DNA of 64,000 bases from Proteiniborus sp. DW1 (GTDB lineage: Bacteria; Bacillota; Clostridia; Tissierellales; Proteiniboraceae), in the NCBI RefSeq assembly GCF_900095305.1, contig NZ_FMDO01000028.1, positions 89,679-153,678 of the forward strand. The letters are read 5' to 3'. Positions 4,489 to 40,844 of the stretch are shown in pieces. Position 1 is the first letter of the stretch; each line of letters begins with the position of its first letter. The notes beneath the pieces were generated by a model, which had not been told where the DNA came from, did not search any database, and worked only from the letters and a program-made list of their open reading frames with translations. The translations under genes and the position numbers were made by a program.

Positions 4489-4499
4489 AGGAGGAAAAA

Positions 4500-5947: not shown

Positions 5948-5956
5948 AAGTCTAAG

Positions 5957-6027: not shown

Positions 6028-6068
6028 TAATTGTCGAAAATGGCATATATAATAAGGAGTTGACTCAA

Positions 6069-6632: not shown

Positions 6633-6758
6633 AAATCGTATAAGACTGAAGAGATTGGAAGATAGCTTTTTGGATGAAAATTATTATTTAGTAATTCCAA
6701 TAATTTCATTTGTGAATTTGATGAAAAACAACACTTTAATCAATACAGACTGATAACA

Positions 6759-7118
6759 TTGAAAAGAGGATACCAGAATTCTATGTTTTCATTTGATTAT
6801 AATTCTTATTATGACTTATCCAGTAAATCTATTGTTAACCCAGGGAAAAGTGGTTTTCATAAATTAAAAAGTAAGGACATTTTATTTCCTGAAGTTCTTA
6901 AAGGAGACAAACAAGATAATAGAATAAGACAGAGAGCATTTAGGGATTATCTTAAAGATATTGTTCCTGTTAAATTAGGATACAACCCTACAGTTAGAAT
7001 AAGCTATAAGGTTACAAATAATAAGACTAAGGAATTTACAAATAAAGATTTAGAGGATGTAAAAGCATATTTATATAATATTGCTTTATTCAATAAAATA
7101 ATTTTACACTATAATTAA
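6759..7118 (+). CDS. Hypothetical protein, probably a 5'-truncated remnant
   Basis: This 119-residue open frame from a TTG is not recognised. It is basic and tyrosine-rich, with no membrane segment or known motif. The frame stays open upstream to about 6678 without a good start or ribosome site, then meets stops at 6663 and 6675. That suggests the surviving 3' part of a longer gene. It lies at the border between the cobalamin operon and the accessory zone. Confidence 0.35.
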   Translation: MKRGYQNSMFSFDYNSYYDLSSKSIVNPGKSGFHKLKSKDILFPEVLKGDKQDNRIRQRAFRDYLKDIVPVKLGYNPTVRISYKVTNNKTKEFTNKDLEDVKAYLYNIALFNKIILHYN

Positions 7119-7126
7119 TTAACTTC

Positions 7127-7165
7127 TATACAAAAATTAATTTTTTTAATTAATAAATTTGTATA
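7127..7165. terminator. AT-rich stem-loop after the hypothetical gene
   Basis: TATACAAAAATTAA pairs imperfectly with the TTAATAAATTTGTATA-type arm across a T-rich loop. It lies between a gene end and the next ribosome site. It may end transcription in both directions, but the arms are AT-rich, so this is weak. Confidence 0.35.
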
Positions 7166-7195
7166 ACAAAAAGTATGTAAGGGAGGGAATGCTGT

Positions 7196-7963
7196 ATGTC
7201 AAGAAATATTTACCTTAATGAAGATATAGCTTTAATAAATAAAAAATTTGAAGCTTCTGATGATGTAACAATATTTAGATACATGGATTTTAGTAAATTT
7301 ATGGACCTATTAGAAAATAAAAGTATTTATTTTTGTAGTTCAAAATATTTTGAGGATGATTATGAGGGTAAAATGCCAGAAGGGTTTTATAAAAATTGGC
7401 CAGAAGATATAACAAATGGTCATAAAGAAATATCAACTGAGTTTGAAAAGGTCTATAAAACTTATATTAGTTGTTGGAATGAAGCTAAGGGTGAGTCATA
7501 TGCATTATGGAAAATATATACTAATCCAAATACAGGTGTTGCAATTAAATCAACAGTTGGAGATTTGAAGAAGGCATTAAATAATGATAGGATAAAAATA
7601 TATAAAGTAAGATATATAGATTCATTTAGTAGTATTGATGAAGACTATGAGCCACCTTTTTACTTTAGGGAAACAGAAAGAGAACCCAATATATCAATTA
7701 ATAAACGAATAAAAGAAGTTTATAAATTCAAATCTTATAAATATGAAGATGAAATAAGAGCAGTATATGTAGATATTTCAAAATCGAGAGGAAAAACTTT
7801 TGAGATTGATATAAATAAATTAATTAATGAAATATATATAAGTCCATTTGCTCCTGATTGGTTTGCTAAGTTAGTAGAAAAAATTAAAAGTAATAAGAAT
7901 TACAATATTTTAGATAAACCTATATACAAATCACAAATTTTAATAAGAGGAAATAATGATTAG
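7196..7963 (+). CDS. DUF2971 family protein
   Basis: The 255-residue protein shows the DUF2971 pattern: FRYMDFSKFMDLLENKSIYF, then SSKYFEDDYEG, YISCWNEAKGESYALWKIY, GVAIKSTVGDLKKAL, KVRYID, and a C-terminal FKSYKYEDEIRAVY followed by INEIYISPFAP. The family has no settled function and is frequent in accessory and defence-rich regions. A GGGAGGG ribosome site lies about ten bases before the ATG. There is no obvious operon partner; the short frame that overlaps its end looks non-coding. Confidence 0.8.
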   Translation: MSRNIYLNEDIALINKKFEASDDVTIFRYMDFSKFMDLLENKSIYFCSSKYFEDDYEGKMPEGFYKNWPEDITNGHKEISTEFEKVYKTYISCWNEAKGESYALWKIYTNPNTGVAIKSTVGDLKKALNNDRIKIYKVRYIDSFSSIDEDYEPPFYFRETEREPNISINKRIKEVYKFKSYKYEDEIRAVYVDISKSRGKTFEIDINKLINEIYISPFAPDWFAKLVEKIKSNKNYNILDKPIYKSQILIRGNND

Positions 7964-8164
7964 ATTTATAATAAATAAAAAATTTATTGATAAAAGAAAC
8001 ATTTTAAACAAGCCTTATCTGAGGATAAAATCTAAGGTAACCTTGTTTAATTTACCTATAAATGAAGAATGCAGGAAAACAGAAGGTTTGGGGGATGGGG
8101 ATTTGAAGAATTTGTTTGAGGAGGATATCTTGTTGTCACCATAAAATATAGTTCTTCAACAAGT

Positions 8165-8413
8165 AAATAAAGTTCTTCAAAGCAGGAGAAATTTTAGAAT
8201 AAATTCTAAGAAATCTCCTGTTTTTTTAATCCCTTTTTCATTTCCCCTTAAGCATCAAGCTGTTGAAGTTCCTTGATTTCCTTCATCCTTAAACCTTATT
8301 TCCTAATTCTTATCCCTGTATAAATTCCTTGAAGAACTTTATTTTCATGATAAAATGGAAATGAGATGGATAGTGGGGTTGGGGGAATTGGGTTTTGAAG
8401 AACTTTATTTTCA
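8165..8413. repeat. Inverted and direct copies of a TTGAAGAACTTTATTT repeat
   Basis: TTGAAGAACTTTATTTTCA occurs identically at 8329-8347 and 8395-8413. Its 16-base reverse complement, AAATAAAGTTCTTCAA, is at 8165-8180, and a shorter relative (GTTCTTCAA) is at 8151-8159. The stretch from 7964 to about 8590 holds no supportable gene; it contains these copies, one strong hairpin and pyrimidine-rich tracts. The role is unknown; it could be a decayed mobile element or binding sites. Confidence 0.6.
8183..8228 (+). terminator. Strong 17-bp hairpin with T run
   Basis: CAGGAGA (8183-8189) pairs with TCTCCTG (8214-8220), and the inner arms extend this to about 14 of 17 matched positions around a four-base TAAA loop. 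Seven T follow directly. It fits a Rho-independent terminator for the DUF2971 transcript. Confidence 0.75.
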
Positions 8414-8590
8414 GGTTACAATATGCAGATAGAGAAACTTTTGAGAAACACACATACAATAATGCTGATTTTATAAGGAATATCTATAAGCAGGAGGAGC
8501 TGCCGATAAAGTTTTAAGACAAAACCTTTATCCTGTTTCTCCAATCCTTACTTCCTTAAAACTTTCATCCTGCTTCTCCTTTTATTCAAC

Positions 8591-8646
8591 TTCATGAAAA
8601 TATTCATGAAAATAATATTGAAAAAGTTAGTGTTTAGATGTATATT
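8591..8646 (+). promoter_or_regulatory. Toxin-antitoxin promoter with a tandem 12-bp operator-like repeat
   Basis: TTGAAA (8618-8623) and TATATT (8641-8646) are 17 bases apart, a good vegetative promoter. Immediately upstream, TTCATGAAAATA occurs twice in tandem without a gap (8591-8602 and 8603-8614), each copy carrying the palindrome TTCATGAA. Phd/YefM antitoxins repress their own operon by binding palindromes near the promoter, so this is a likely autoregulatory site; the assignment is inferred. Confidence 0.6.
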
Positions 8647-8682
8647 ATTAGTATAGAGATCATATATTAAAGGAGGATAGGA

Positions 8683-9096
8683 ATGCAACAAGGAGTTTTG
8701 GTGGATAGTTTGGAAAGGAAGAATGCTTTTATGACTGATAATACAATTGAAAGTTTGAAACATATTATAGAAAAGTTCATATCTATATCTGATTTAAGCC
8801 GTGGCAAGGCTTCTAAAGTAATACAAGATGTGGTAAAAGATGAAAGTCAATATATTATTATAAAAAACAATAAGCCTGAAGCTGTGATACTCTCATTAAA
8901 TGAATATATGCACCTTGTAGAAATTAAAGAAAAAATGAACGAGATGAAAGAAGATATTGAACTTATACGATTAGTAAATGAAAGAATGAAGAATTATGAT
9001 ATAGAAAATACCATGTCTCAAGATGAAATTTTGAAGAGATATAATATAAAAGAAGAAGAGATAGACGAATTAATTGATTTTGTGGAGCTTGAATGA
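8683..9096 (+). CDS. Type II antitoxin, Phd/YefM family
   Basis: The 137-residue protein has the Phd/YefM core: the ISDLSRGKASKVIQDV DNA-binding region, YIIIKNNKPEAVILSLNEY, then a long helical tail (KEKMNEMKEDIELIRLVNERM and a C-terminal DEILKRYNIKEEEIDELI) that would wrap the toxin. It is longer than the usual 80-95 residues because of this tail and an extra N-terminal segment. AAAGGAGGATAGG before the first ATG supports that start, though a second Met at residue 17 is possible. Its stop overlaps the toxin start by ATGA, the classic arrangement for such pairs. Confidence 0.85.
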   Translation: MQQGVLVDSLERKNAFMTDNTIESLKHIIEKFISISDLSRGKASKVIQDVVKDESQYIIIKNNKPEAVILSLNEYMHLVEIKEKMNEMKEDIELIRLVNERMKNYDIENTMSQDEILKRYNIKEEEIDELIDFVELE

Positions 9097-9461
9097 TGTG
9101 GGAAGTAAGATATATTGATGAAGCTTTAAAGGATTTGGATAAATTAGACGCATTCTTAAGAAAAATGGTTTTAGCTGGTATAAAAAAGGCTTCTCAAAAT
9201 CCATTACCTCAAAGCGAAGGAGGATATGGAAAGCCTTTAGGGAATAAGAATGGCAATAACTTAGTAGGCTTTTTAAAAATAAAGTATAAAAAAATTGGAA
9301 TTAGAGTAGTTTATTCATTAGTGAGAGACAAGCAAGTGATGAACATAATTGTTGTATCGAAACGAGAAGACGATACGTGCTATGAAGAAGCTGAAAAAAG
9401 AAAAAGGGAATATAAAGAAAAATTGTTTGAAGATTTGTTTCGAAGTATAAGTGATAGATAG
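9093..9461 (+). CDS. Type II toxin, RelE/ParE family
   Basis: The 122-residue product has the RelE/ParE layout: N-terminal WEVRYIDEALKDLDKL, a helical pair, PLPQSEGGYGKPLGNK, LVGFLKIKYKKIGIRVVYSLV and a terminal VMNIIVVSKREDD. RelE-type members cut mRNA on the ribosome, ParE-type ones poison gyrase; which applies cannot be decided here. The C-terminus is longer than usual and rich in Lys and Glu. It is coupled to the antitoxin by a four-base overlap. Confidence 0.85.
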   Translation: MMWEVRYIDEALKDLDKLDAFLRKMVLAGIKKASQNPLPQSEGGYGKPLGNKNGNNLVGFLKIKYKKIGIRVVYSLVRDKQVMNIIVVSKREDDTCYEEAEKRKREYKEKLFEDLFRSISDR

Positions 9462-9572
9462 GATGTTTAAGCAGGATTAGAGAGAAAGGATTTGTAGACA
9501 GGATTAAGGGTACAAGACAGGTTTTAGGACAAGGGGGAATAAGACAGGGTTAAGGATGAAGGAGTCAAGGTG

Positions 9573-9598
9573 CAAGGAATTATGCCTTGGCTTTTTTT
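9573..9598 (+). terminator. Terminator after the toxin-antitoxin pair
   Basis: CAAGG (9573-9577) pairs with CCTTG (9585-9589), followed by GCTTTTTTT. The stem is short, but the position and T run fit. Upstream, 9462-9570 is purine-rich low-complexity sequence without a gene. Confidence 0.55.
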
Positions 9599-9684
9599 CG
9601 TTAGGAAAGAGCTACTTTTTCAGCAAAAACAAAAAAATGGATATGGGAAATTATGGCACAACAAAATAACCTAATGAAATTAGA

Positions 9685-10519
9685 TTATTTTTTGTATTCG
9701 TAGTGAACACCACGAATACCAGTATAAGATTTTGGGGTCATAGTACCGTCACAAACTTGGCAATCAGGTTGTGGTGGAATAGATGGATCGAGTCCATCAA
9801 ACATATTATCTTCTTCTAGTTGCTGTACAATGAAACGAGGAACCCAAAGAGAATATCCACCCTTTTCAGTTGCTAGGTATAACATTTTCATTAGGCTTTC
9901 ATCATTAGGAAATATCAATTTCGTTTTTGTAACCTTTCTAAACTGGCTATGTAGGCTTTCTATGACATTTGTAGTGTACATAATTTTGCGGATATAATCT
10001 GGGAATGTTAAGAAAGTTATTAGATTATCCCAGTTATCTTCCCAGCTCTTAATTGCATTAGGATACTTATGTCCCCACTTTTCTTTAATACTTGCCAAAT
10101 TTTCCAATGCTTCATCAGCACCAACATAAGACTCTATAAGCATTTCACGATAAGCCTCATGAGCTTGGCGATGAAGATAATATTTTTTACGAAGAACACA
10201 TTGAGGTTCTTCTAAGCATCCGTTACAGACATATGGAGGTTCAAAGAGTTTGTAACAGGGTTATTCCTGGTAGTCTTCGTATGGTTCGTTGCAAAGGTTG
10301 CATAAAGAACAACGTCTAGTGCAATTTGGCTTGCCACTGCAAAGATAGCGCTTTTGACAATCATAGCGTTTCACACATCTATTGTGAGGGCGATATGGTG
10401 CATATTTGTTGCTGGTTACAGAACGAGAAAGAATTTCTCTTGAGATAGTTGAAGAGCTTTTATCAAGCTTCAAGGCGATTTGTTTGATAAGAATCAGTTA
10501 AATGATTGTTTTTGGCCAT
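9685..10519 (-). pseudogene. Chimeric transposase remnant: IS30-type N-terminus joined to IS256-type C-terminus
   Basis: Read on the minus strand from an ATG at 10519, MAKNNHLTDS is an IS30-type start. A deletion with frameshift near 10490 then joins it to KLDKSSSTISREIL, the IS30 helix-turn-helix, and a cysteine-rich segment (CVKRYDCQKRYLC, CTRRCSLCNLC). A TAA at 10261 interrupts the frame, which continues as FEPPYVCNGCLEEPQCVLRK and REMLIESYVGA. From about 10125 it becomes clear IS256/Mutator C-terminus: EKWGHKYPNAIKSWEDNWDNL, IMYTTNVIESLHSQFRKVTK, IFPNDESLMKMLYLATE. The final 58 residues match neither family to my eye and carry a C-x2-C pair. The element is dead and mosaic. Confidence 0.75.
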
Positions 10520-10611
10520 GACAAATTTCTTCACTTTTTAAATTGCGCAAGACACATGTGGTAGTAGTTACCATACATGTATTATTGTCAAAAAAGTGAG
10601 GTTTGTCAGAC

Positions 10612-10648
10612 TAAATGCAACCACTTTGATTCAATAAGGTTGCATTTA
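10612..10648. repeat. Inverted repeat beside the IS30-type remnant
   Basis: TAAATGCAACC (10612-10622) is mirrored by GGTTGCATTTA (10638-10648), 11 perfect pairs around a 15-base loop. It lies about 100 bases upstream of the IS30-type start, where a terminal repeat of that element would be expected, so it may be an IS end or the stem-loop target such elements prefer. Confidence 0.5.
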
Positions 10649-10748
10649 ACTTGTCAATTGACCTTTAAAATTGCCTAACTAAAGTTAATTAATTTCGATA
10701 CTTACTTCTAAAATTGCTTATACTATATAACAACATAGGAGTGGTATT

Positions 10749-11123
10749 TTGGATATTAAGTATAAAATTGCTATTACATTTGTTATATTATTAACTTTAA
10801 CTATTATATTATATATACATTATGCTCCAGTTAATTTTGATGCAGGATCTTGTTCTGGGGGATATAAGAAATGGATACTTAATAAATTTTCTTCTCAATT
10901 AGTTAATATGTTTATGGAAGAAAGAGGTCTTTCTACTAATTTAGAATATGAAATTATTGATAATCACGACAATGAAGATGAGCAAGTTACCTGGGATGGT
11001 AGAATAATTTATATTACATTAAGAATTAAAATAGACGATAATATCTGTATTGTAAATTATGAAGGTAAAAGATATTGGATAGAAAGATATAAGTGGAAAA
11101 TTAGTAGTATAAACTTATTATAA
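10749..11123 (+). CDS. Hypothetical membrane-anchored protein
   Basis: The 124-residue protein is not recognised. It has one N-terminal hydrophobic segment (about residues 6-24) without a clear cleavage site, followed by a polar domain containing VNFDAGSCSGG and several Tyr/Ile-rich strands, so it is probably anchored with its body outside. A TTG start at 10749 lies about seven bases after AGGAG (10737-10741) and is preferred. It stands alone between two insertion-sequence remnants, so its origin may be mobile. Confidence 0.5.
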   Translation: MDIKYKIAITFVILLTLTIILYIHYAPVNFDAGSCSGGYKKWILNKFSSQLVNMFMEERGLSTNLEYEIIDNHDNEDEQVTWDGRIIYITLRIKIDDNICIVNYEGKRYWIERYKWKISSINLL

Positions 11124-30224: not shown

Positions 30225-30980
30225 ATGAACAAAGAATCAGAAATCCAGATAAAACCATTTGTAAAAGTGAAAAATATAACAAAGAGATTTGGCAGCATAG
30301 AAGCCCTCAAGGCTGTTAATTTGGAGTGTTATTTAGGCGAGGTATTAGCAGTTGTAGGAGATAATGGTGCGGGTAAGACTACTCTTATAAAAATTCTTTC
30401 AGGAGCATCTATACCAGACTCAGGTGAAATTTGGATTGATGATGAAAGGCAAAAGGAGATGAGTCCTAAGACCTCCTTAGACAAAGGAATATCTACAGTG
30501 TATCAGGATTTGTCACTAGTGGATACTTGTGATGTATCTTATAATATTTTTCTTGGTAGAGAGCCACTGAAGGGATGTTTTATAGATAAGAAAAAAATGG
30601 ATGAAGAATCTAAAAAACTAATTCAGAATCTAGGAATTCAAATATCAAGTATCAATGAACCTGTTGGAAGGATGAGTGGTGGTCAGAGACAAGGAGTTGC
30701 TGTTGCTAGAGCTGTTCATCAAGGTGGGAAACTATTGATTTTTGATGAACCAACTGCAGCTATGGGGTTAGTGGAATCTACTAAAGTACTTAAATTAATC
30801 AAAAAGCTTGCAGAAGATGGATATGGAATAATTATAATTAGTCATAATTTGCAACAGGTATTTCAAATTGCTCATAGGATATGTATAATGCGGCAAGGCA
30901 CTATTGTAGATATAGTAAAAACTGATGAGGTAAAAATTGAGGATGTAATTTCTATGATTACAGGGGCAATTCAAGTTTAA
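30225..30980 (+). CDS. Sugar/nucleoside ABC importer ATPase, single-domain
   Basis: The 251-residue ATPase has Walker A GDNGAGKTT (near residue 46), signature MSGGQRQGVAVARA, Walker B LLIFDEPTAAMG and the switch in IIISHNL. The DNGAGKTT and DEPTAAM forms match the RbsA/FrcA (CUT2) class. RbsA normally has two fused ATPase domains; this has one, so it must act as a homodimer, as in FrcA. It is the first gene of a seven-gene operon and lies 13 bases before the permease gene. Confidence 0.9.
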   Translation: MNKESEIQIKPFVKVKNITKRFGSIEALKAVNLECYLGEVLAVVGDNGAGKTTLIKILSGASIPDSGEIWIDDERQKEMSPKTSLDKGISTVYQDLSLVDTCDVSYNIFLGREPLKGCFIDKKKMDEESKKLIQNLGIQISSINEPVGRMSGGQRQGVAVARAVHQGGKLLIFDEPTAAMGLVESTKVLKLIKKLAEDGYGIIIISHNLQQVFQIAHRICIMRQGTIVDIVKTDEVKIEDVISMITGAIQV

Positions 30981-30993
30981 AAGGAGAAGAATT

Positions 30994-31956
30994 ATGAATG
31001 AGAATCTAAAAACAAGATTGGAACCATATAGAATGACTATACTATTATTTTCAATTTTATCTCTTATGGTAATAGTATTGAGTATCGTTTCGCCGTTTTT
31101 TTTGACATTAAGAAATATAAAAAATATACTGGACCAAACTTCTATATATATTATCTTGTCTGTTGGGATGACTTTTGTTATATGTTCAGGAGGCATAGAT
31201 CTTTCAATTGGGTCAGTAATTGCATTTAGTGCAGTTATATCTGGAATTGCTATGAAGGGGAATGTAAGTGTTGGAGTTTCTGTGTTATTAGGATTAGTTG
31301 TAGCTATGCTAATAGGTTGTCTTAATGGTTTTTTGATTTCCTTCATAAAGATAAATCCATTAATAGTGACTTTAAGTACTATGTCAATATTTAGAGGGAT
31401 AAATATATTAATCACAAATGGCAAACCAGTTTTTGGATTTTCGAAAGCTTTTACTTATTGGGGTAGTGGAAGTGTTGGATGGCTAAACTGGCCAATTATC
31501 ATATCTTTTATAATTACTCTATTGGGCATAATTATATTAAGTAAAACACGATTTGGATATTATACTATTGGAATAGGAGCCAATGAAGAGGCTTTAAGAA
31601 GAAACGGAATAAATACAAAAAGATACAAAATATTAATATATACATTATGTGGTTTTTGTGCAGGAATAGCAGGATTTATTATTAGTGCAAGATTAAATAC
31701 GGCAGAGCCCTTGGCAGGAACAGGCTATGAAATGGATGCTATTGCGGCAGTGGTTCTTGGTGGTACAGATATGAATGGAGGAAAGGGAAGTATAAGTGGT
31801 ACATTTATTGCTTGTCTAATTTTAGGAGTAATGAAAAATGGGTTAAGGATACTTTCTATTTCATCCAATTATCAACAATTATTAACAGGATTAATTATTT
31901 TATTATCAGTTGCATCTACAGAATACAAAGTTAGAAGAAAAGCAAAAGCACATTAA
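30994..31956 (+). CDS. Sugar/nucleoside ABC importer permease, RbsC family
   Basis: The 320-residue protein has eight to ten hydrophobic segments and the RbsC-family motifs: GMTFVICSGGIDLSIGS, INPLIVTLSTMSIFRG, then the coupling region GANEEALRRNGINTKRYK and AAVVLGGTDMNGGKGS. AAGGAG precedes its ATG. It would form the channel with the ATPase before it and the binding lipoprotein two genes later. The substrate class of this family covers pentoses, nucleosides, autoinducer-2 and purines. Confidence 0.92.
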   Translation: MNENLKTRLEPYRMTILLFSILSLMVIVLSIVSPFFLTLRNIKNILDQTSIYIILSVGMTFVICSGGIDLSIGSVIAFSAVISGIAMKGNVSVGVSVLLGLVVAMLIGCLNGFLISFIKINPLIVTLSTMSIFRGINILITNGKPVFGFSKAFTYWGSGSVGWLNWPIIISFIITLLGIIILSKTRFGYYTIGIGANEEALRRNGINTKRYKILIYTLCGFCAGIAGFIISARLNTAEPLAGTGYEMDAIAAVVLGGTDMNGGKGSISGTFIACLILGVMKNGLRILSISSNYQQLLTGLIILLSVASTEYKVRRKAKAH

Positions 31957-31986
31957 GATTATTTCAAAAAGGCAGGCGAGGATTTT

Positions 31987-32940
31987 ATGAGTAAAAGAAA
32001 AAGAGTTTTATCTCTTGGAACAGTAGCAATGGACATTATAATAGAGTCTCAAGAATTGCCGAGAGAAGATGGATTTGGTTTTATTGAATCAGAAAGATTG
32101 GTACCTGGTGGAAGTGCTGCTAATGTTTCTGTTGCACTTGCTCGTTATGGAATAGAAGCTTATCAGGCTGGGAAAATAGGTGAAGATAATTATGGATATG
32201 AATTTCGTAAGACATTAATAGAAGACGGAGTAAGTGATAAGTTTTTAGTTACAAAACCTAATGGGACAACCTTGCATAATTACATTATAACTGCTCCTGG
32301 AGGGAAACATTGTATTTTTGCAAACTTAGGGGACTCAGTGATAGACTTACAGCCAGAAGAGATTCCAGAAAATATATTGGATGGGATAGATGTATTTTAT
32401 ACAGATTTGTTTTCTTCTCGTGCAGCTATTTTTATAGCCAAATTAGCTAAGGAAAAGAATATCCCGGTTTTATACAATATGCAATGTGTACCAAGCTTTA
32501 TGGAAACTTGTGGTGTTGCTATTGAAGAAATAGAAGAAATGATAAGCTTATCAACTATATTTTCCAGTGGACGGGAAGGTTATCTTGAAATGACTGGTGA
32601 AAAAGATTATGGCAAGTCAATAGAAATGATTTTCAAAAGGTTTCCTTCATTACAGGGAGCAATCTGCACTGCTGGAAGTGAAGGAGCTTTATGGATAGAT
32701 AAAGAAGGGTTACTTAATGTAGAAGCATTTCCAATAGAAGCTGTAGATACAACTGGTGCAGGAGATTGTTTTTTAGCTGGATTTATTTATTCATACTTTT
32801 GTGAAAGAATGAATAAAAAGGATGCACTTGAGTTTGCTTCTGCGTCAGCTGCTATAAAATGCCTTCAAAAAGGGCCAAGAACAAAGGCGACTTTAGATGA
32901 TGTAAAAAGGTTTATTAATTCTGAAAAATACCAGAATTAA
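31987..32940 (+). CDS. PfkB-family carbohydrate/nucleoside kinase
   Basis: The 317-residue kinase begins SLGTVAMDIIIESQELP, has the sugar-binding GGSAANVSVALARYG motif near residue 44, and the anion-hole and catalytic DTTGAGDCF at 254-262 with Asp260 as base. PfkB enzymes phosphorylate ribose, nucleosides (including pseudouridine, PsuK) and related sugars at the 5' or 1' hydroxyl. Being placed between importer genes and a PsuG-like gene, it most likely phosphorylates the imported glycoside. The E. coli yegTUV set also joins a PfkB kinase to an ADP-ribosylglycohydrolase-family gene. Confidence 0.9.
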   Translation: MSKRKRVLSLGTVAMDIIIESQELPREDGFGFIESERLVPGGSAANVSVALARYGIEAYQAGKIGEDNYGYEFRKTLIEDGVSDKFLVTKPNGTTLHNYIITAPGGKHCIFANLGDSVIDLQPEEIPENILDGIDVFYTDLFSSRAAIFIAKLAKEKNIPVLYNMQCVPSFMETCGVAIEEIEEMISLSTIFSSGREGYLEMTGEKDYGKSIEMIFKRFPSLQGAICTAGSEGALWIDKEGLLNVEAFPIEAVDTTGAGDCFLAGFIYSYFCERMNKKDALEFASASAAIKCLQKGPRTKATLDDVKRFINSEKYQN

Positions 32941-32968
32941 TATATACTAAATTGAGGAGGAATAAAAA

Positions 32969-34087
32969 ATGTTAAAAAACAAAAGATCTTTAAAATTTAA
33001 ATCACTAGTATTTATGTTAGTGGTAGTTATGTCTATGAGTGTAATAGGTTGTTCTAAGGATAGCCAGACTACAGGCACTCCAGAGGTAAAGGAAAACAAC
33101 GAGGTAGGAGAAAAAGAAAGTAGTGACACAGTAGAAAAAGAAAATAGTGCCATAATAGAAGCAGAAAAAATGCTATTAGAAGCTTTAGCACCACTTCCAG
33201 ATAAAAATACAGGTGTTAAAATAGCTGCTATAGAAAGTACCTTAGCAAATTCTTTCTGGATTACAATGCAAGAAGGTTATGAAGATGCGGCAAAAGAATA
33301 TGGTGTTACTATAGATGTACAAGCAACAGAAACAGAAACAGACATTGAAGGACAGCTAGAGATTATGAGAGTGCTTCTCTCTAAGGATTATGATGCTATT
33401 GCAATATCACCACTAACAGAACAAAACTTAATACCAGGAATTGTAGAAGCCAATGAAATGGGAGTTAAGGTTGTAGCAGTAGGAAATGGTGTGAATGAAG
33501 AAGCACTAGCAGAAGCAAATGGAAAAATAGAAGCATTTATTACATCAGACTTCAAATATCAAGGAACATTAGGAGCACAATATATAATTGAAAAGACAGG
33601 TGGTAAAGGTAAAGTAGCTGTTATTGAAGGAATACCAGGAGCTACTCAAAGTGAGGCAAGAAAAAATGGTGCAGTAGAAGCATTTAAGGAAGCGGGTATG
33701 GAAGTGCTACCAGTACAAACTGCTAACTTTGACCGTCAGCAAGCTTATGATGTGACGACTGCAATAATTGAAGCAAATCCAGATATAGTAGGTATCACTT
33801 GTGGAAATGATATTATGGCTCTTGGTGCAGTAGAAGCATTGAAGGCAAAAAATATGAAAGATAAAGTAATGGTTGTAGGAGTTGACTTCATAGAGGAGGC
33901 AAAGGTATCCATTGAAAATGGGGAATTAGATGCTACAGTAGCAATGTCACCTTATTTATTTGGAAAAGCCGGATTAATTACAGCACTTAAAGCAATTAGA
34001 GGAGATGAATTTAAAGAGTCTGTAGTTTGGACACCGATACAACTTGTAAATAAAGATAATGTAACTTCTATGGAAGGCTGGAGATAA
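32969..34087 (+). CDS. ABC importer substrate-binding lipoprotein, RbsB-like
   Basis: The 372-residue precursor has a lipobox (SVIGC, Cys28), a short acidic linker (KENNEVGEKESSDTVEKENS) and a periplasmic-binding fold of the ribose/LacI type: AIESTLANSFWITMQEGYEDAAKEYGV, AISPLTEQNLIPGIVEANEMG, ITCGNDIMALGAVEAL and VVGVDF. It delivers the ligand to the RbsC-type permease. An attenuator-like hairpin follows the gene, which would give this protein more transcripts than the enzymes downstream. Confidence 0.92.
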   Translation: MLKNKRSLKFKSLVFMLVVVMSMSVIGCSKDSQTTGTPEVKENNEVGEKESSDTVEKENSAIIEAEKMLLEALAPLPDKNTGVKIAAIESTLANSFWITMQEGYEDAAKEYGVTIDVQATETETDIEGQLEIMRVLLSKDYDAIAISPLTEQNLIPGIVEANEMGVKVVAVGNGVNEEALAEANGKIEAFITSDFKYQGTLGAQYIIEKTGGKGKVAVIEGIPGATQSEARKNGAVEAFKEAGMEVLPVQTANFDRQQAYDVTTAIIEANPDIVGITCGNDIMALGAVEALKAKNMKDKVMVVGVDFIEEAKVSIENGELDATVAMSPYLFGKAGLITALKAIRGDEFKESVVWTPIQLVNKDNVTSMEGWR

Positions 34088-34100
34088 CGTAAAAAGATGA

Positions 34101-34146
34101 AGGGTAGGTTTTAGATAAGTGGCAACACATATTAAAGCCTACCTTT
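34101..34146 (+). terminator. Attenuator-like hairpin inside the operon
   Basis: GGGTAGGTTTTA pairs with TTAAAGCCTACC (11 pairs, one bulge), followed by TTTATTATT. It lies between the binding-protein gene and the first ADP-ribosylglycohydrolase gene and could let most transcripts stop after the importer part. Confidence 0.6.
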
Positions 34147-34169
34147 ATTATTAGAATGGAGGTATAGAT

Positions 34170-35207
34170 ATGTATAATAAAATATTAGGAGGGCTTATTG
34201 GTGCTGCAGCTGGAGATGCTATGGGAGCAGCGACAGAAGCACGATCAATTGAGCAAATTATGGAATATTTTGGGCATGAGGTTACTGATTTTGAAGTACC
34301 ACCTATGGATACTTTTGGTGCAGGCAACAAAGCTGGACAAGTAACAGATGATTTTAGCTCAGCGTATTTTGTTGCCAGAAAAATAGTAGAAGCTGGAGGA
34401 AAGGTAACAGAGCAAGCAATTAAAGATGCTTTGATAGAGTGGTCTAAGCATTCTGTGTTTTTTGATCGTTTTGCAGGTCCGACTACCCGTTTGGCTATTA
34501 GAGAATTTGAAGGAAAACTGGACGAAAATTCTGGGAAGACAGCGTTAGCTACTCGTCAGGCTACTAATGGCTCTGCAATGCGTATTTCCCCAATAGGACT
34601 ATTAAATCCTGGAAACTTAGATGCAGCTATTTCTGATGCAGCAAAGGTAACAATGCTAACCCATGACAATTACCTTTCGATTTCTGGTGCTTGTGCTGTA
34701 GCTGCAGCTGTAAGTAGAGCAATGATGGATGATGCGGATGTATATAATGTAATTCGTTCAGGGCTATATGGAGCTATAGAAGGGGAAAAGCTAGGAAGAA
34801 AAATAGGACGTGATGCAGCAGGACCATCCGTAGTAAAGCGTATGGAGTTAGCAATTGAGATAGGGTTTGGAAAAGGAACTCCAAGAGAAAAAATGGTAGA
34901 AATTGCCGAAAGGATTGGCACAGGACTTCATATTTCTGAGGCCGTACCATCAGCATTTGGAATATTCGCAGCAAATAACGGAGATGCCATGGGAACAATT
35001 ATTGGATGTGTAAATGCAGGATATGATACTGACACTTTAGCAACTATAGCAGGTGGGATTGCAGGAGCACTATGTGGCGCAGATTCTTTTCCAGAGCATT
35101 TTCTTCCCACATTAGAGGAAGCAAATGGTCTGGATATTCAAGGATTGGCCAAAGGTATTGAGCAAATTTGTTATAAAAAGATGGCAAATATGTTTGGAGG
35201 GAAATAA
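34170..35207 (+). CDS. ADP-ribosylglycohydrolase-family protein, intact metal motifs
   Basis: The 345-residue protein has the DraG/ARH fold motifs: GAAAGDAMGAATEARS near residue 11, the metal-binding T59-D60-D61 in GQVTDDFS, NGSAMRISPIGLLNPG, and the C-terminal metal motif D286-T-D288-T in GYDTDTLATIAGG. These binuclear Mg/Mn enzymes cleave N- or O-glycosidic bonds to ADP-ribose, but many bacterial members have unknown substrates. Here it accompanies an importer and kinase, so hydrolysis of a nucleoside or nucleotide glycoside is more likely than removal of ADP-ribose from proteins. A GGAGG site precedes the ATG. Confidence 0.88.
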   Translation: MYNKILGGLIGAAAGDAMGAATEARSIEQIMEYFGHEVTDFEVPPMDTFGAGNKAGQVTDDFSSAYFVARKIVEAGGKVTEQAIKDALIEWSKHSVFFDRFAGPTTRLAIREFEGKLDENSGKTALATRQATNGSAMRISPIGLLNPGNLDAAISDAAKVTMLTHDNYLSISGACAVAAAVSRAMMDDADVYNVIRSGLYGAIEGEKLGRKIGRDAAGPSVVKRMELAIEIGFGKGTPREKMVEIAERIGTGLHISEAVPSAFGIFAANNGDAMGTIIGCVNAGYDTDTLATIAGGIAGALCGADSFPEHFLPTLEEANGLDIQGLAKGIEQICYKKMANMFGGK

Positions 35208-35209
35208 AG

Positions 35210-36271
35210 ATGTATAACAAAATTTTAGGAGCATTAGTAGGTGCTGCTGTAGGAGATGCTATGGGTGCTGCTACAGAGCTTAGGTCTTTTAATCAGATAC
35301 GTGAAAGTTTTGGTGGGAAAGTAGTAGATTTTCATACTCCACCAAATGATACACCAGCAAAAGGTCGTGTAGCAGGTCAGGTAACAGATGCCTTTAGTAT
35401 TCCGTATATATTAATTAAATATATACTAAAAACTAATGGGAGTTTTACAACAGAATCTGCTCAAAAAGCTCTAATTGAATGGAGCACATATGAATGGTTT
35501 GAGCCTTTTGCAGGAATGACTACTCGAAAAGTAATTAATCGTATAACTGCAAGTAAAGAAAATAATACTTATTGGGCTTATGCAGGACATTTAGGGAATA
35601 AGCTTTTTAAAGGCCATTATTATGCCATGTCATCTAATGGGGCAGCCTGTAAAGCTTTTCCAATGGGTTTATTTAATCCAGGAGATATTGATAAGGCTAT
35701 ATACGAAACTATAGCAGTAACTATGTCATCTCATGATGATAAATATAGCATCTCAGGAGCCTGCGCTGTAGCAGCTGCAGTGAGTAAAGCTATGGAAGAA
35801 AAAGTTACAGTTTATGATATCGTTCAAGCAGGCTTTTATGGAGCAAAAATAGGAGAGGAAAGAGGTAACGAAATTGCACTTAATTATCCAGGGCCTTCTG
35901 TACAAAAGAGAATGGATATGGCTGTAAATATAGCAATGAAAGCAGGAGAACCTGATAAGATAATGGAGAACTTAGCAGAAACAATTGGAAGTGGACCAGC
36001 AATTGCTGAAACCGTACCAGTTGCTTTTGGACTATTTATAGCAAATAATGGTGAAACCATGCCATCTATCTATGGTGGAGTTAATATTGGGGATGAAACA
36101 AGTGCAATTGCTACTATTACAGGGGCATTGTCAGGAGCATGTAATGGAATAGATTCAATTGCTAATGGATACCAGAAGATTATTGAAGAAAAAAATGAAA
36201 TGGATTTATCAAAGCTATCTGAGGAAATATGCAAGTATATTGAAAAAGATTTAATGGATAGAAGGAAGTGA
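35210..36271 (+). CDS. ADP-ribosylglycohydrolase-family paralogue with altered metal ligands
   Basis: The 353-residue product is a clear tandem paralogue of the preceding protein, starting with the same MYNKILG and GDAMGAATE segments and sharing TPP(N/M)DT, GLFNPGDI and SGACAVAAAVS. The T-D-D motif is changed to T59-D60-A61 and D-T-D-T to D295-E-T-S, so at least two usual metal ligands are lost. It may be an inactive partner, a subunit of a heteromer, or an enzyme with a different metal arrangement. It begins two bases after the previous stop. Confidence 0.85.
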   Translation: MYNKILGALVGAAVGDAMGAATELRSFNQIRESFGGKVVDFHTPPNDTPAKGRVAGQVTDAFSIPYILIKYILKTNGSFTTESAQKALIEWSTYEWFEPFAGMTTRKVINRITASKENNTYWAYAGHLGNKLFKGHYYAMSSNGAACKAFPMGLFNPGDIDKAIYETIAVTMSSHDDKYSISGACAVAAAVSKAMEEKVTVYDIVQAGFYGAKIGEERGNEIALNYPGPSVQKRMDMAVNIAMKAGEPDKIMENLAETIGSGPAIAETVPVAFGLFIANNGETMPSIYGGVNIGDETSAIATITGALSGACNGIDSIANGYQKIIEEKNEMDLSKLSEEICKYIEKDLMDRRK

Positions 36272-37050
36272 TAAATATAGAAACTAAATTTCTAGTAGAA
36301 ACAGCTTTATTAACCCATGGTTTAAAATCCATTGAAGACGAAACTCTTATAAAGATATGGCCTTGGGAACATAAGTGCATAGCCTGGGTTGATGAAGGAG
36401 AGGTAATAGTTGGAAGCATGAAAGAATTTATTAGTTTTAGAAGTAAATCCAAGGAACTGATACGTATAGATAAGAATATTTTTATAGAATCATGTAACAA
36501 TGGCATAAGCGGAGCCTTAACTGCATCTGGAACTATGATGGCAGCAAAGGAAAAGGGAATTCATATTGCAGTAACTGCTGGAATGGGTGGCATTGGAGAT
36601 GTTTTAGGAGAAGAACTAAGTGCAGATTTGTCTGCCATAGCGACTATGGATGTAGTATTGGTAGCTACTTCACCAAAGGATGTAATAAATATAGAAGGGA
36701 CTATTAAGTGGCTATTAGAGCATGATGTTAGGATATGGGGAAGGGATACAGATATTATAGATGGATTTATGGTAAGTAATAAACCTATAAAAATTACAGG
36801 TAAATATGAGGGACAACCTTTAAAAAGCAAAACATTGCTTTTAAATCCTATACCGAATAAAGTTAGGTTGAAAGATTTGACCATAATAGAAAAGGCTAAA
36901 AGAGCGGGTAAAGAAGCTGAAAAAAGAGGAGAATACTATCATCCAGCTGCAAATGCTATGATAGATAGGCTTTCATATGGGAAGTCTTCTGAGCTACAAC
37001 TAAAATCATTAATTAATAATAGTATTTGGGCAAATGAGTTAACTAGATAA
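36268..37050 (+). CDS. Divergent pseudouridine-5'-phosphate glycosidase (PsuG) homologue
   Basis: PsuG cleaves or forms the C-glycosidic bond of pseudouridine 5'-phosphate. The 260-residue protein aligns by eye with E. coli PsuG (312 residues): Glu11 in VETALLTHG (E31), Thr103 in VTAGMGG (T130), Ser118 and Asp120 in LSADL (S147, D149), Lys137 in SPKDVI (K166) and the terminal NN pair. The loop holding H-R-G-A-E-H in PsuG is missing and K93 appears to be Arg66. Thus the bond-cleaving residues remain while part of the phosphate-side pocket differs. GTG start; GTGA overlap with the previous gene. E. coli numbering is from memory. Confidence 0.75.
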   Translation: MINIETKFLVETALLTHGLKSIEDETLIKIWPWEHKCIAWVDEGEVIVGSMKEFISFRSKSKELIRIDKNIFIESCNNGISGALTASGTMMAAKEKGIHIAVTAGMGGIGDVLGEELSADLSAIATMDVVLVATSPKDVINIEGTIKWLLEHDVRIWGRDTDIIDGFMVSNKPIKITGKYEGQPLKSKTLLLNPIPNKVRLKDLTIIEKAKRAGKEAEKRGEYYHPAANAMIDRLSYGKSSELQLKSLINNSIWANELTR

Positions 37051-37434: not shown

Positions 37435-38703
37435 ATGAAAAAAACAATAGTTTTTATAGTATTTATATTTAGTCTACTCCTTTTACTAAGTTGTGAAAAA
37501 CAAGACTATAAAAGAATAGTAGTAGAAGAAAATGTAGAACTAGAAGGAGAAGCCCCTGTAGAACCTTCTAGTTTTGGACAAGTATATCTAGATTTAGATA
37601 GTAGTAATTGTTTTTATCCAGCCTTTTATTATGGAGATGAGATATATGGAAACCTTAAAAAAAATCACGATAAAGATATCAGTGGTAAAAAATATCTATA
37701 TAAATTAGATGTGTATAATAAGATATCAGAAACATTGAAAGAAAGCATAGACTTCAGACCAGGAATTAACAAGGTTGGACTTATAGAAGATAAGGCTTAC
37801 ATGATAGATTACACTATAAGAAGTAAACCAACTTTAATAAATGAATTGTCTATAATAATTAATGAACTAAGGGAAAATGAAAATCAATATGAAATATCCT
37901 ATGTATCCGGAAGTAATAGATACTTAGTCATTAATGAAATGTCGTCTAGTGGGGAGGTAATCAATGTCTTCTTATATGACTTAGTCGATAATAGATTTTA
38001 TAAAAATAACACCCATAGACATGGTGATATATGCTATATTTTTGAGCTAAGATCATTAATTTGGATAGATCAAAAAGATTTTAAGATTTATAAGATTCGA
38101 TTTGAAAATGACCATTATACTTTAGAAGAATATATTGATTTGGGAATAGATGAAGATATAAGTAGAGTTAGAGGAACTATGAAAAATGGTCATGAGTTAA
38201 TCCTTTTTCACGATATAAGATTAGGAAACAAAGAGAACTGGAATTTGATGGGAACATCTGTTGTTACTAGTTATAATTTTGAAAAAAAGGAATATACTTA
38301 TTTATTTAATAATTCTATTGACAAGAGCTTGAACATGGCAAATTTAAAAAATAAAAGCTCTGCAAAAGAAAGCTCTATTTCACTTAGTGCACCTATTGAT
38401 GAATACTCATACATAGAATATATAGGAAATGGTTTCTTTATAGAAGAAAGCTTTGATTTATTTAGAGACTACATTGAATTAACTAAGAGAAGTATATATT
38501 ACTATAAATATACTATACCTGTTTTAGTCTATGATGAAGAATTTAAAGAAAAATCACAACAAATTTATCCAGAAATAAATGTATTAGTTAACGAAGCTGG
38601 AAATGAAATATTTTCTACTAGGGAAATAAAGAAAATAATAGATGGTATTCCTGTCACTAAAGATGTTATTTACCAGAGAATTATTATATCAAGGTCTAGA
38701 TAG
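37435..38703 (+). CDS. Lipoprotein, possibly propeller-like sensor partner
   Basis: The 422-residue precursor has a lipobox (LLLSC, Cys20). The mature protein is rich in aromatic beta-strand text (KYLYKLDVYNKI, VINVFLYDLVDNRFYKN, LRSLIWIDQKDFKIYKI, SYNFEKKEYTYLF), spaced like the blades of a propeller, but no named family is recognised. It lies 34 bases before a response regulator and kinase and in the same direction as a transporter cluster that includes another propeller-bearing lipoprotein. It could sense ligand or cell-envelope state for that system; this is inference. Confidence 0.6.
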   Translation: MKKTIVFIVFIFSLLLLLSCEKQDYKRIVVEENVELEGEAPVEPSSFGQVYLDLDSSNCFYPAFYYGDEIYGNLKKNHDKDISGKKYLYKLDVYNKISETLKESIDFRPGINKVGLIEDKAYMIDYTIRSKPTLINELSIIINELRENENQYEISYVSGSNRYLVINEMSSSGEVINVFLYDLVDNRFYKNNTHRHGDICYIFELRSLIWIDQKDFKIYKIRFENDHYTLEEYIDLGIDEDISRVRGTMKNGHELILFHDIRLGNKENWNLMGTSVVTSYNFEKKEYTYLFNNSIDKSLNMANLKNKSSAKESSISLSAPIDEYSYIEYIGNGFFIEESFDLFRDYIELTKRSIYYYKYTIPVLVYDEEFKEKSQQIYPEINVLVNEAGNEIFSTREIKKIIDGIPVTKDVIYQRIIISRSR

Positions 38704-38737
38704 AATCTGAAGCTAAATAAGAGAAATGGGGGGTAAA

Positions 38738-39406
38738 ATGACAAAAAAGATCTTAATAGTAGAGGACGAATACTCAATTAATGATATATTGACAATGACC
38801 TTAATAAATGAAGGATATGAGGTAGAAAGCTATTTTGATGGAAAGACAGCATTAGAGAGGATAAAAATATTTAAGCCTGATCTAGTACTTTTAGATTTAA
38901 TGCTTCCAGATATAGATGGTTTTGAAATCTGTAAGCAAATATCTAATGACCATTTAGTTATTATGATTACAGCTAGGGATAGTATTTTCGATAAGATAAT
39001 AGGATTAGAGCTGGGTGCAGATGATTATATAGTTAAACCATTTGAAATTAAAGAAGTAATAGCTAGAGTAAAAGCATTATTTAGAAGTATTGAAAAGGAA
39101 AAACAGGTTTTATCAGAAGAGATTATTGAACTAGGAGAGGGCATAAAAGTAGATTTGTTTGGTGAGCGAGTATTTAAAAATGGTGTGGAGGTTCCGTTAA
39201 AGAGACAAGAATCTGCTTTGTTTTTCTTTCTACTGAAGAATAGAAACAGAGTATTTACTAGACCTGAACTGTTGGATAGTGTATGGGGCTATGATTACTA
39301 TGGAGATTCCAGAACAGTTGATGTCCATGTTAGAAGAATTAGAGCAAAACTAGGAACTCCCACTATTATAGAAACTGTGTTTGGGAAAGGCTATGTAATG
39401 AGGTAG
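38738..39406 (+). CDS. Response regulator, OmpR/PhoB family
   Basis: The ATG at 38738 follows a GGGGGG site; an in-frame ATG at 38726 is too close to it. The product has 222 residues with a receiver domain (LIVEDEYS, Asp in VLLDLMLPDIDG, MITARD, IVKPFE) and a winged helix (QESALFFFLLKNRNRVFTR, then DSRTVDVHVRRIRAKL and GKGYVMR). It is followed after four bases by its kinase gene and probably regulates the transporter cluster downstream. Confidence 0.92.
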   Translation: MTKKILIVEDEYSINDILTMTLINEGYEVESYFDGKTALERIKIFKPDLVLLDLMLPDIDGFEICKQISNDHLVIMITARDSIFDKIIGLELGADDYIVKPFEIKEVIARVKALFRSIEKEKQVLSEEIIELGEGIKVDLFGERVFKNGVEVPLKRQESALFFFLLKNRNRVFTRPELLDSVWGYDYYGDSRTVDVHVRRIRAKLGTPTIIETVFGKGYVMR

Positions 39407-39410
39407 AACA

Positions 39411-40844
39411 ATGCTAAATACTATTAGGGGTAAAATAACTACTGGAATAATTCTAATTAGTTTTATAATATTAATAATAATAAACTTTATAATATGGCAG
39501 ATATTTGAAGAAAATTTGCAAACCTTCATTTTAAATGACATGAAAAGAATCATGTCAATAATGTATTATGGGCTTGAAAGACAAGTATTAAATCTACAGG
39601 GAGATATAACTTTATATAATAGAAGTAATTTGTGGTCAATTATGAATAAAGAAAGTCTGCGATACGACATATATTTATCAATAATGTATGATAATGATGG
39701 TTATATACAGTTTGCAGGTAAGCTTATTGACAAGAACAGTATGGATAAAATTATAGAAGATAGCAATAACAAATCATCACTGTTATATATTCACAATGAG
39801 GATAATAGATATTTTGCAACCTATTCATATCCAGTATATGTAAAGAATAGTTATGTAGGTATATTCGTATTTCAGAAAGATTATTTGACTCAATATAATA
39901 ACTATAAGGATTTGATGAAGAGGATAATAGTTATTCAATTTATTTTATTCATAATAATGGTATTAATAAACTCTGTTTGGCTAAAGAAATCAACTAATTC
40001 ACTAAATACGTTGTTAAAAGGAATAAAGTCTATGGGCGAAGGAGAATATTCTAATAGATTAGAAGCAAAAAGTAATGACGAAGTAGCTATCATTATTCAC
40101 CAGTTCAATAAAATGCAGGATCAAATAGTATCACAAATGGAATATTTAAGACAGGAGAAAGTTAAGATAGAGGAGCTGGAGAAGTCCACTAGGAATTTTT
40201 TCAATTATGCGACTCATGAGATGAAGACTCCAATTACTTCAATTACAGGATATGCCCAGTTATTAAGTCAGGGCAAGATAGATGATAAAATAAAAGATAG
40301 AGCATATGAAAGAATAATAACAGAAGCTGATAGAATGAATAAAATGGTTCAAAACATGTTGATAGTAGCTAAAGGTAAAGAAATAGAAGAGGAACATAAG
40401 GAATACTTTGATCTAAATGAACTGATAGGCAAAATAATTAAAGAATATGGAGTAATATATAATAGAGGAAAGATAGAACTAAATTTAGAAAATGAAAGTA
40501 TTATAATCTTTGGAAATGAAGAAGAAATAAGAGCAGTTGTTTTAAATCTTATTGATAATGCTATAAAATATAGCGTAGATGGACAAATAAAAATTAGAGT
40601 TTGTCTAGATAACCATGCATATATAATACTTGAAAACAAGACATTACCTATACCAGAGGGAATAAAAAACACCCTGTTTGAACCATTTGTAAAGTATAAT
40701 CATGGCAACCAAAAACAAGCCAGCTCTGGATTAGGGCTTTATATATGTAGAGAATTAATTGAAAAAAATGAAGGTAAAATAAATTATAATTTATATGAGG
40801 ATACAATTAGTTTTACAATTGAACTACCTATAGTGAACGATTGA
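39411..40844 (+). CDS. Sensor histidine kinase with HAMP domain
   Basis: The 477-residue kinase has two membrane helices (about 8-30 and 166-186) around a sensor of about 135 residues, then a HAMP domain (LLKGIKSMGEGEYSNRLEAK), H-box ATHEMKTPITSITGYAQLL, N-box VVLNLIDNAIKYS and a catalytic G-box (SSGLGLYICRELIE). The usual D-x-G-x-G F-box is replaced by a short LENKTLPIPEGI segment, so the ATP site is slightly divergent. It pairs with the regulator just upstream. Confidence 0.9.
   Translation: MLNTIRGKITTGIILISFIILIIINFIIWQIFEENLQTFILNDMKRIMSIMYYGLERQVLNLQGDITLYNRSNLWSIMNKESLRYDIYLSIMYDNDGYIQFAGKLIDKNSMDKIIEDSNNKSSLLYIHNEDNRYFATYSYPVYVKNSYVGIFVFQKDYLTQYNNYKDLMKRIIVIQFILFIIMVLINSVWLKKSTNSLNTLLKGIKSMGEGEYSNRLEAKSNDEVAIIIHQFNKMQDQIVSQMEYLRQEKVKIEELEKSTRNFFNYATHEMKTPITSITGYAQLLSQGKIDDKIKDRAYERIITEADRMNKMVQNMLIVAKGKEIEEEHKEYFDLNELIGKIIKEYGVIYNRGKIELNLENESIIIFGNEEEIRAVVLNLIDNAIKYSVDGQIKIRVCLDNHAYIILENKTLPIPEGIKNTLFEPFVKYNHGNQKQASSGLGLYICRELIEKNEGKINYNLYEDTISFTIELPIVND

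Follow-up and report, generated by a model that had tools for sequence, protein, structure and literature searches.

A recurring operon of Proteiniborus sp. DW1 with a short PsuG-family protein, predicted to import and cleave a nucleoside-like riboside

What does an operon act on when it joins a short relative of the glycosidase PsuG to an ABC importer, a PfkB-family kinase and two proteins of the ADP-ribosylglycohydrolase family (ARH1 and ARH2)? Such an operon occupies positions 30225-37050 of a 64,000-nucleotide stretch, here called the window (G000:C28:89679-153678), of the genome of Proteiniborus sp. DW1 (Tissierellales; 3.12 Mb in 62 contigs). A sequence-only reading of the window had described seven co-directional genes and proposed the import and breakdown of a nucleoside-like glycoside other than plain pseudouridine; the open reading frames, their plus-strand orientation and their families are as it described them (Table 1). 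We put at about one half the probability that the operon imports a nucleoside-like riboside and splits its sugar from its aglycone by means of a Lys-imine enzyme of the PsuG family, probably in connection with sulfur or selenium (S/Se) salvage. The gene set is confirmed as real and recurring, and the doubt about pseudouridine is supported. Overall the sequence-only reading is partly supported, and it missed a distinct clade of short PsuG proteins, the recurring altered metal site of ARH2 and the S/Se-type partner genes of relatives.

PsuG is the best-known enzyme of its fold for breaking carbon-glycosidic bonds. The last protein of the operon, termed sPsuG, belongs to the same family, PF04227, as it passes the curated Pfam cut-off and has the PsuG fold; an NCBIfam scan of the window sPsuG gave no match. 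Among solved structures, PsuG chains, AlnA and TM1464 are related to it in sequence. An AlphaFold2 model built from an alignment of 35 sequences (pLDDT 95.4) retrieved PsuG structures first in Foldseek (4gik-4gim, TM about 0.8). AlnA, the prealnumycin C-glycosynthase (4ex8, 4ex9), shares the fold at TM 0.74-0.76 and differs in being, by name, a C-glycosynthase. Homologues of sPsuG, among 120 of 423 matches listed, are at least 43% identical and mostly about 260 aa long, and the sPsuG clade separates from canonical PsuG in a tree with support of 100/100.

Residues were surveyed in 60 short sequences (the window's included) and 13 canonical PsuG proteins, using E. coli PsuG numbering. In passages of a PsuG study, Lys166 is described as forming the imine with help from Glu31, and the crystal structure as showing a single hydrogen bond to uracil, that of Asn289 (PMC7722734). 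Lys166 and Asp149 are retained in all 60 short sequences and Glu31 in 56, with Asp in three and one row without that stretch; in the window they are K137, D120 and E11, the bond-breaking residues that the sequence-only reading had picked out. Other positions set sPsuG, at 260 aa, apart from the 312-aa E. coli enzyme. Lys93 is replaced by Arg and Asn289 by Gln in 60/60 (R66 and Q244 in the window), Val113 is Ala in 57/60, and Asp145 is retained in 1/60 and His137 in 0/60, the window protein having also lost the latter. Canonical proteins, by comparison, hold Lys93, Asp145 and Asn289 in 13/13 and His137 in 12/13. Because Lys166 and Asp149 are fixed while the uracil contact Asn289 is Gln throughout, sPsuG appears to keep the bond-breaking residues and to alter the contact with the aglycone. 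It agrees with PsuG in the Schiff-base Lys166 and the acid Glu31 and departs from it at Lys93, His137, Asp145 and Asn289, and judged from sequence it is likely a Lys-imine enzyme of the PsuG family with changed substrate-side residues.

Pseudouridine is probably handled elsewhere in this genome, because contig C32 holds a canonical PsuG (308-aa frame, 459 bits) and, just before it and overlapping it by 8 bp, a gene for a winged helix and a PfkB domain whose product reaches 265.5 bits on the model for pseudouridine kinase (cut-off 540). The window kinase reaches only 24.1 bits on that kind of model (NF007355, cut-off 540) and falls outside PsuK. Given this canonical PsuG/PsuK-like pair and the fixed residue changes of sPsuG, the Asn-to-Gln exchange among them, a plain pseudouridine pathway was set aside as the leading explanation and kept as a rival. 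The earlier view that the substrate is probably not plain pseudouridine therefore stands.

Is the gene set more than an accident of one genome? Scanning contigs gave 55 loci, with L065-L069 (canonical or distant) left out; after genome-search loci were added and duplicates dropped, there were 60 sPsuG loci besides the window. L040 is outside this count with its protein among the 60 sequences, L063 and L064 are fragments, and many loci end at contig ends. Kinases were counted at 150 bits or more, so that a distant PfkB gene of L132 (58 bits) was not included. The sequence-only reading had staked itself on its four families co-occurring outside this genome, and kinase plus ARH genes indeed accompany sPsuG in 10 of the 60 loci (L019, L036, L041, L050, L056, L060, L094, L125, L126 and L128). 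The identical seven-gene order recurs in four of them, L050, L056, L060 (where a frame change splits ARH2) and L094, which places the gene set beyond chance, and the sPsuG proteins of such cassettes fall at several places in the tree, that is, in several sPsuG lineages. A kinase without ARH was found in five further loci (L016, L017, L139-L141) and neither gene in 45, among which 33 have CUT2 importer genes, 2 have Nup permeases and 10 show neither within the stretch covered. The proposal that the substrate requires a PsuG-like as well as an ARH-like step is not supported by these counts, since ARH is missing from 5/15 kinase-bearing loci and both genes from 45/60. Tissierella sp. P1 has a kinase near sPsuG and no ARH match in its genome. 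T. praeacuta (L070) and Clostridium Cult1 (L071) carry the six-gene set without sPsuG, at a distance from an sPsuG locus of the same genome.

When genomes are sampled regardless of sPsuG, ARH1 and sPsuG turn up together more often than expected. In a class sample (291 genomes; thresholds E<=1e-70 for ARH1 and E<=1e-25 for sPsuG), ARH1 was present in 3 and sPsuG in 4, and all three ARH1 genomes have sPsuG. Two of the 392 genomes of an order sample around F. contorta have ARH1, and in each (L050, L094) sPsuG belongs to the cassette. The phylum sample of 398 genomes had ARH1 in 9 (6 above 450 bits) and sPsuG in 15, with 4 shared including the window's own genome; the three new shared genomes have cassette genes and sPsuG in one cluster, and all three distant ARH1 genomes are without sPsuG. 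Hypergeometric p-values excluding the own genome are 7e-5 (class), 3e-4 (phylum, close ARH1) and 1.8e-3 (phylum, all 9), and serve as guides only because the genomes are not independent.

The two ARH paralogues differ at their metal sites. ARH1 is a PF03747 protein with the TDD and DTD motifs that the sequence-only reading had assigned to it. ARH2 exceeds the Pfam cut-off and has TDA in place of TDD and DET in place of DTD. In an alignment, ARH2 of the window and of L036, L050, L056, L060, L070 and L071 all show TDA together with GDETSA or GDETCA; the second ARH of L019 is altered in another way, and both ARHs of L041 retain TDD. The recurrence of the altered metal site points to a partner role and suggests, from these motifs, that ARH2 is possibly a non-catalytic partner of ARH1. 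As a separate observation, a frame change interrupts ARH2 in the metagenome-assembled genomes (MAGs) L036 (12916-13952) and L060 (8941-9980), with adjoining cassette genes full-length. Selenocysteine was considered for these split ARH2 genes and for the broken sPsuG of L063 and rejected, as three-frame reading gave frame changes and not single in-frame TGA codons.

The importer is of the CUT2 ABC type. Two details refine the earlier assignment to RbsABC and set the importer apart from that ribose system: the ATPase is single-domain, matching only the first half of the roughly 500-position RbsA/MglA-type models, and the binding lipoprotein scores 239 bits on the allose protein model versus 134 bits on the ribose (RbsB) model, both under cut-offs (337 for RbsB). 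The best NCBIfam model for the permease is ribose permease (250 bits, under the cut-off of 398). In the kinase, the GAGD Asp lies at residue 260, as first noted. Bmp/Nup-type binding proteins bind nucleosides. Importer genes of this type occur in 6/60 sPsuG loci (L015-L019, L041), and the solved relatives of the L017 lipoprotein include BmpD, BmpA and TmpC. A further importer kind is present at L038 (8519-9949), where two 221-aa genes lie directly 5' of sPsuG and the one scanned is an ECF S-component (PF12822).

A locus with canonical PsuG, L130 (G876:C45:42000-61000), has at 353-10988 on the minus strand the apparent operon GntR-ARH-PfkB-Bmp-Nup ABC-AIRS-IF-2B-PsuG, thus combining yegTUV-like genes with a true PsuG in last position. 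This PsuG keeps K93, H137, D145 and N289, and the IF-2B-family gene belongs to the ribose-1,5-bisphosphate/methylthioribose-1-phosphate isomerase group. At L130, PsuG chemistry is linked for a second time to ARH, PfkB and an importer of nucleoside type; together with the six Bmp/Nup loci, this upholds the proposal that the operon imports and breaks down a nucleoside-like glycoside.

From the gene content and order, the clade with its fixed residues, the modelled fold, the co-occurrence and the neighbouring families, all of them shown here, we predict the following substrate handling and activities. The ABC importer would take up the riboside, and the PfkB kinase would likely phosphorylate it, by analogy with PsuK. 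Lys137 of sPsuG would then likely form a Schiff base with C1 of the ring-opened sugar and expel the aglycone. Hydrolysis of a related ribosyl bond likely falls to ARH1, which ARH2 probably assists as a non-catalytic partner. In relatives, the aglycone may pass to a thiol/selenol methyltransferase (UroD with a corrinoid protein and RACo), to a low-potential reductase, or to both.

This last step is drawn from neighbours of sPsuG in other genomes. Genes for MtaA/CmuA-like URO-D proteins lie directly behind sPsuG in L036, L125, L126, L139, L140 and L141, and near it in L056, L017 and L094; the two proteins scored (L056, L140) are under NCBIfam cut-offs. Corrinoid proteins occur in L017, L094, L126 and L141 by Pfam and in L140 by similarity, and RACo in L017 and L094. 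Double-cubane-type reductases are found in L036, L060, L128 and L139-L141, with an activase too in L036, L060 and L128, and exceed the cut-off in L020, L036, L051, L128, L140 and L142. L036 shows the arrangement in full: sPsuG, URO-D, importer, kinase, ARH1, ARH2 (split), activase, reductase. At L071, activase and reductase genes adjoin ARH2 on the opposite strand. In one non-overlapping frame set, URO-D or corrinoid genes were present in 8/15 kinase/ARH loci versus 0/45 others, and an all-frames rescan adds L036 (9/15). Markers from a broader set (double-cubane, URO-D, corrinoid, YedF, YedE, SelD, NifH) were found in 12/15 kinase/ARH loci, 6/45 other sPsuG loci and 0/40 canonical-PsuG control loci. 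These controls come from the same order and none matches the kinase or ARH; the 6/45 include corrinoid matches of L043 and L046 that are 796-aa frames, possibly methionine synthase. His-Ile-Cys, followed 73-81 residues on by another Cys, is present in 12 of 12 URO-D proteins examined, by pattern match only. The article on type 1 mlp gene clusters states in places that His-Cys-Cys marks S-methyltransferases in the UroD superfamily, suited to S or Se, and that UroD clusters with corrinoid, RACE and often a double-cubane protein are tied to methyl-selenium/methyl-sulfur metabolism (PMC10418091).

Selenium genes also adjoin sPsuG. On one strand of L142 lie genes for a binding protein, sPsuG, YedE (475 bits, cut-off 200), a double-cubane reductase, an activase, a second reductase-like protein, a cysteine-desulfurase-family protein, SelD and a YedF-like protein; L051 and L063 have YedF and double-cubane genes. 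YedE, YedF, a 2-hydroxyglutaryl-CoA dehydratase subunit and an activase are listed in selenium contexts in parts of PMC5322559. The window genome carries SelD over its cut-off on another contig (G000:C42, 403.7 bits, one in-frame TGA), as in a selenium-utilising genome. SelD exceeds its cut-off in 38/39 sPsuG genomes (own included) versus 52/75 sampled genomes (Fisher p 1.8e-4, kinship uncorrected); these samples are 39/40 without G1061 and 56/79 without four sPsuG-positive genomes. No selenocysteine tRNA was found near sPsuG in the 43 loci scanned. The LysR genes upstream at L034 and L039 were considered as selenium regulators and rejected, because they score 90 and 83 bits on the selenium LysR model, whose cut-off is 250 bits. 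At L142, a reverse-transcriptase-like frame (8111-8740, recognized by eye) stands just 5' of the binding-protein gene, which is shortened, as might result from insertion of an element among the importer genes.

Because relatives have such partner genes, the imported compound probably carries sulfur or selenium, and S/Se salvage is the best lead on the substrate, on the basis of neighbourhood and co-occurrence in relatives. A more specific version, tentative and rather doubtful, is that sPsuG itself releases Se or S: a seleno- or thio-riboside (a selenonucleoside or Se-sugar) would be imported and cut by the lysine imine, and the product would enter UroD/corrinoid demethylation, double-cubane reduction and SelD, with the window's kinase/ARH cassette as the nucleoside-handling form.

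Several results weigh against this picture. Within the 64-kb window, a scan found no URO-D, double-cubane, activase, glycyl radical enzyme or NifH match (corrinoid and RACo queries lay outside it); two double-cubane genes are present elsewhere in the genome. Among the 45 loci without kinase or ARH, a convincing marker is present in only four (L020, L051, L063, L142); three of 15 kinase/ARH loci (L016, L019, L050) have none within 9 kb, L050 carrying a glycyl radical enzyme instead; and none was found in cassette L070. Marker p-values overstate the association, because markers were chosen after the loci were viewed, queries were drawn from those loci and kinship is uncorrected. SelD is also widespread in the phylum (56/79 sampled genomes). 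As to the link between ARH1 and sPsuG, 2/6 close ARH1 genomes are without sPsuG at threshold, namely G871 (81% complete) and G1061, and the latter (L127) has a cassette with a reductase in a genome where no sPsuG was found. Finally, the window binding protein is 52-76% identical to those of six kinase/ARH cassettes and 34-42% identical to those of importer-only loci; its identity to allose-binding protein, at 40%, is of the same order, and importer homology therefore does not support a bond between the two groups of loci.

Three other explanations account for parts of the same evidence. Salvage of pseudouridine or methyl-pseudouridine, with the kinase acting as PsuK, the sPsuG pocket retuned for RNA-derived modified C-nucleosides and ARH clearing other ribosides, would explain the PsuG fold with its catalytic Lys, Glu and Asp, the nucleoside-type importer of six loci and the company that canonical PsuG keeps at L130 (ARH, PfkB, GntR and a Bmp/Nup importer). 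In addition, a search with sPsuG found a single match in each of the genomes of C. ultunense, S. acidaminivorans and T. praeacuta (G056, G053, G023), and hence no canonical PsuG in them. We nevertheless consider it unlikely. The window genome already has canonical PsuG with an adjoining PsuK-like kinase, the window kinase is not PsuK-like, the uracil-contact Asn289 is Gln and His137 is absent in all 60 sequences, and 45/60 sPsuG loci have no close kinase relative alongside (the PfkB of L132 is distant).

Anaerobic salvage of 5'-methylthioadenosine (MTA), methylthioribose or seleno-analogues would run through import, ARH hydrolysis and phosphorylation to C-S or C-Se cleavage and demethylation by nitrogenase-like, double-cubane, glycyl-radical or UroD/corrinoid enzymes. 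It fits the UroD His-x-Cys...Cys motif, the isomerase-group IF-2B gene of L130, the nitrogenase-like genes inside the L041 cassette, and the methionine salvage proposed for related UroD clusters in sections of PMC10418091. Yet L041, as far as the locus reaches, shows a single component-1-like gene and not a D/K pair, the seven genes in the window include no IF-2B or MtnK type, and a PsuG-type C1 imine enzyme would have no evident role on methylthioribose, so that we judge this route quite improbable. An ordinary sugar operon, importing and phosphorylating a simple pentose or hexose with the ARH and PsuG-like proteins as accessories or passengers, has in its favor that the binding protein is nearest the D-allose-binding protein and the kinase nearest ribokinase/ribose-1-phosphate kinase models, under cut-offs. 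Against it, sPsuG, kinase and ARH recur together across several sPsuG lineages and in genomes sampled regardless of sPsuG, and importer type varies among loci, six being nucleoside-type; this explanation is about as improbable.

Riboside cleavage with an S/Se link, our preferred reading, can be set beside known systems. Like psuT-psuG-psuK of E. coli (b2164-b2166), the operon has a PfkB kinase, a PF04227 glycosidase with the catalytic residues and modelled fold, and a transporter; it differs in a kinase that is not PsuK-like, an ABC importer and the added ARH pair. E. coli yegTUV likewise combines an ARH (YegU), a PfkB kinase (YegV) and a predicted nucleoside symporter (YegT); as parts of PMC10819704 relate, its function is not established, no PsuG-family gene is named, ARH is single, the transporter is of the MFS type and the GntR regulator YegW adjoins. 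Type 1 mlp gene clusters, as outlined in parts of Kountz and Balskus 2023 (PMC10418091), resemble cassette relatives that have UroD with the His-x-Cys...Cys zinc-site motif (found by pattern, as above), some with corrinoid, RACo and double-cubane proteins. The window itself is without the mlp core genes searched and has no UroD, and the main text of that article makes no mention of pseudouridine, ADP-ribosyl, PfkB, ribokinase or glycyl radical. The YedE/YedF/SelD selenium-utilisation genes, as given in portions of PMC5322559, stand in line with sPsuG and a binding protein at L142 and recur in part at L051 and L063; for the window, the likeness is limited to SelD at genome level. A literature search found no paper that combines pseudouridine, ADP-ribosylglycohydrolase and PfkB, and among the titles and abstracts listed none describes this gene set.

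That a distinct clade shares the catalytic lysine, has consistently altered substrate-side residues and in most loci comes with its own importer suggests a second use of Lys-imine chemistry in anaerobes, including gut clostridia. If the S/Se link is functional, organic selenium or sulfur would gain an entry step that has been missing, and the orphan ARH/PfkB pair (yegUV-like), double-cubane reductases and UroD clusters could all be tested on one shared substrate.

Table 1. Genes of the operon in the Proteiniborus sp. DW1 window
Feature	Positions	Strand	Support
ABC transporter ATPase, CUT2/sugar type, 251 aa, one nucleotide-binding domain	30225..30980	+	PF00005 107.6 bits
CUT2-type permease, 320 aa	30994..31956	+	PF02653 (BPD_transp_2) 160.7 bits
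PfkB-family kinase, 317 aa, not PsuK-like	31987..32940	+	PF00294; GAGD Asp = residue 260
Substrate-binding lipoprotein, 372 aa	32969..34087	+	PF13407 (Peripla_BP_4); nearest solved relative D-allose-binding protein
ARH1, ADP-ribosylglycohydrolase family, metal motifs intact	34170..35207	+	PF03747 188.4 bits; TDD 59, DTD 286
ARH2, ARH paralogue, altered metal motifs	35210..36271	+	PF03747 145.9 bits; TDA, GDETSA
sPsuG, short PF04227 (Indigoidine_A) protein, 260 aa, GTG start	36268..37050	+	68 bits vs cut-off 25.2

Intergenic gaps are 13, 30, 28, 82, 2 and -4 bp, the last being the overlap of the sPsuG start with the ARH2 end. Operon boundaries rest on this spacing, because promoter and terminator scans at the window gave counts not above shuffled sequence. 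No RNA element was found in the window by an Rfam scan at gathering threshold. An M20 peptidase gene and a GNAT gene lie 5' of the operon. On the 3' side, after 384 bp, come a 422-aa gene with no Pfam match and genes for a putative response regulator and sensor kinase (window 37435-40844).

Radical and nitrogenase-like enzymes adjoin some relatives. In the Oscillospiraceae MAG L041 (5955-10085), sPsuG and the kinase are separated by a NifH-like gene, and the ARH pair is preceded by a nitrogenase-component-1-like gene. The glycyl radical enzymes of L050 (1567-3837) and L056 (7229-9520) are 55% identical, belong to the glycerol-dehydratase family with GCVE and a glycine loop, score under the cut-offs of the NCBIfam models listed, and stand one upstream and the other downstream of the seven-gene cassette. 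At L017 (7618-9988), the glycyl radical enzyme YjjI and its activase YjjW are encoded between the nucleoside-type importer and sPsuG, and L015 (8903-9988) holds only pieces of the two; in E. coli, yjjIW adjoins deoCABD.

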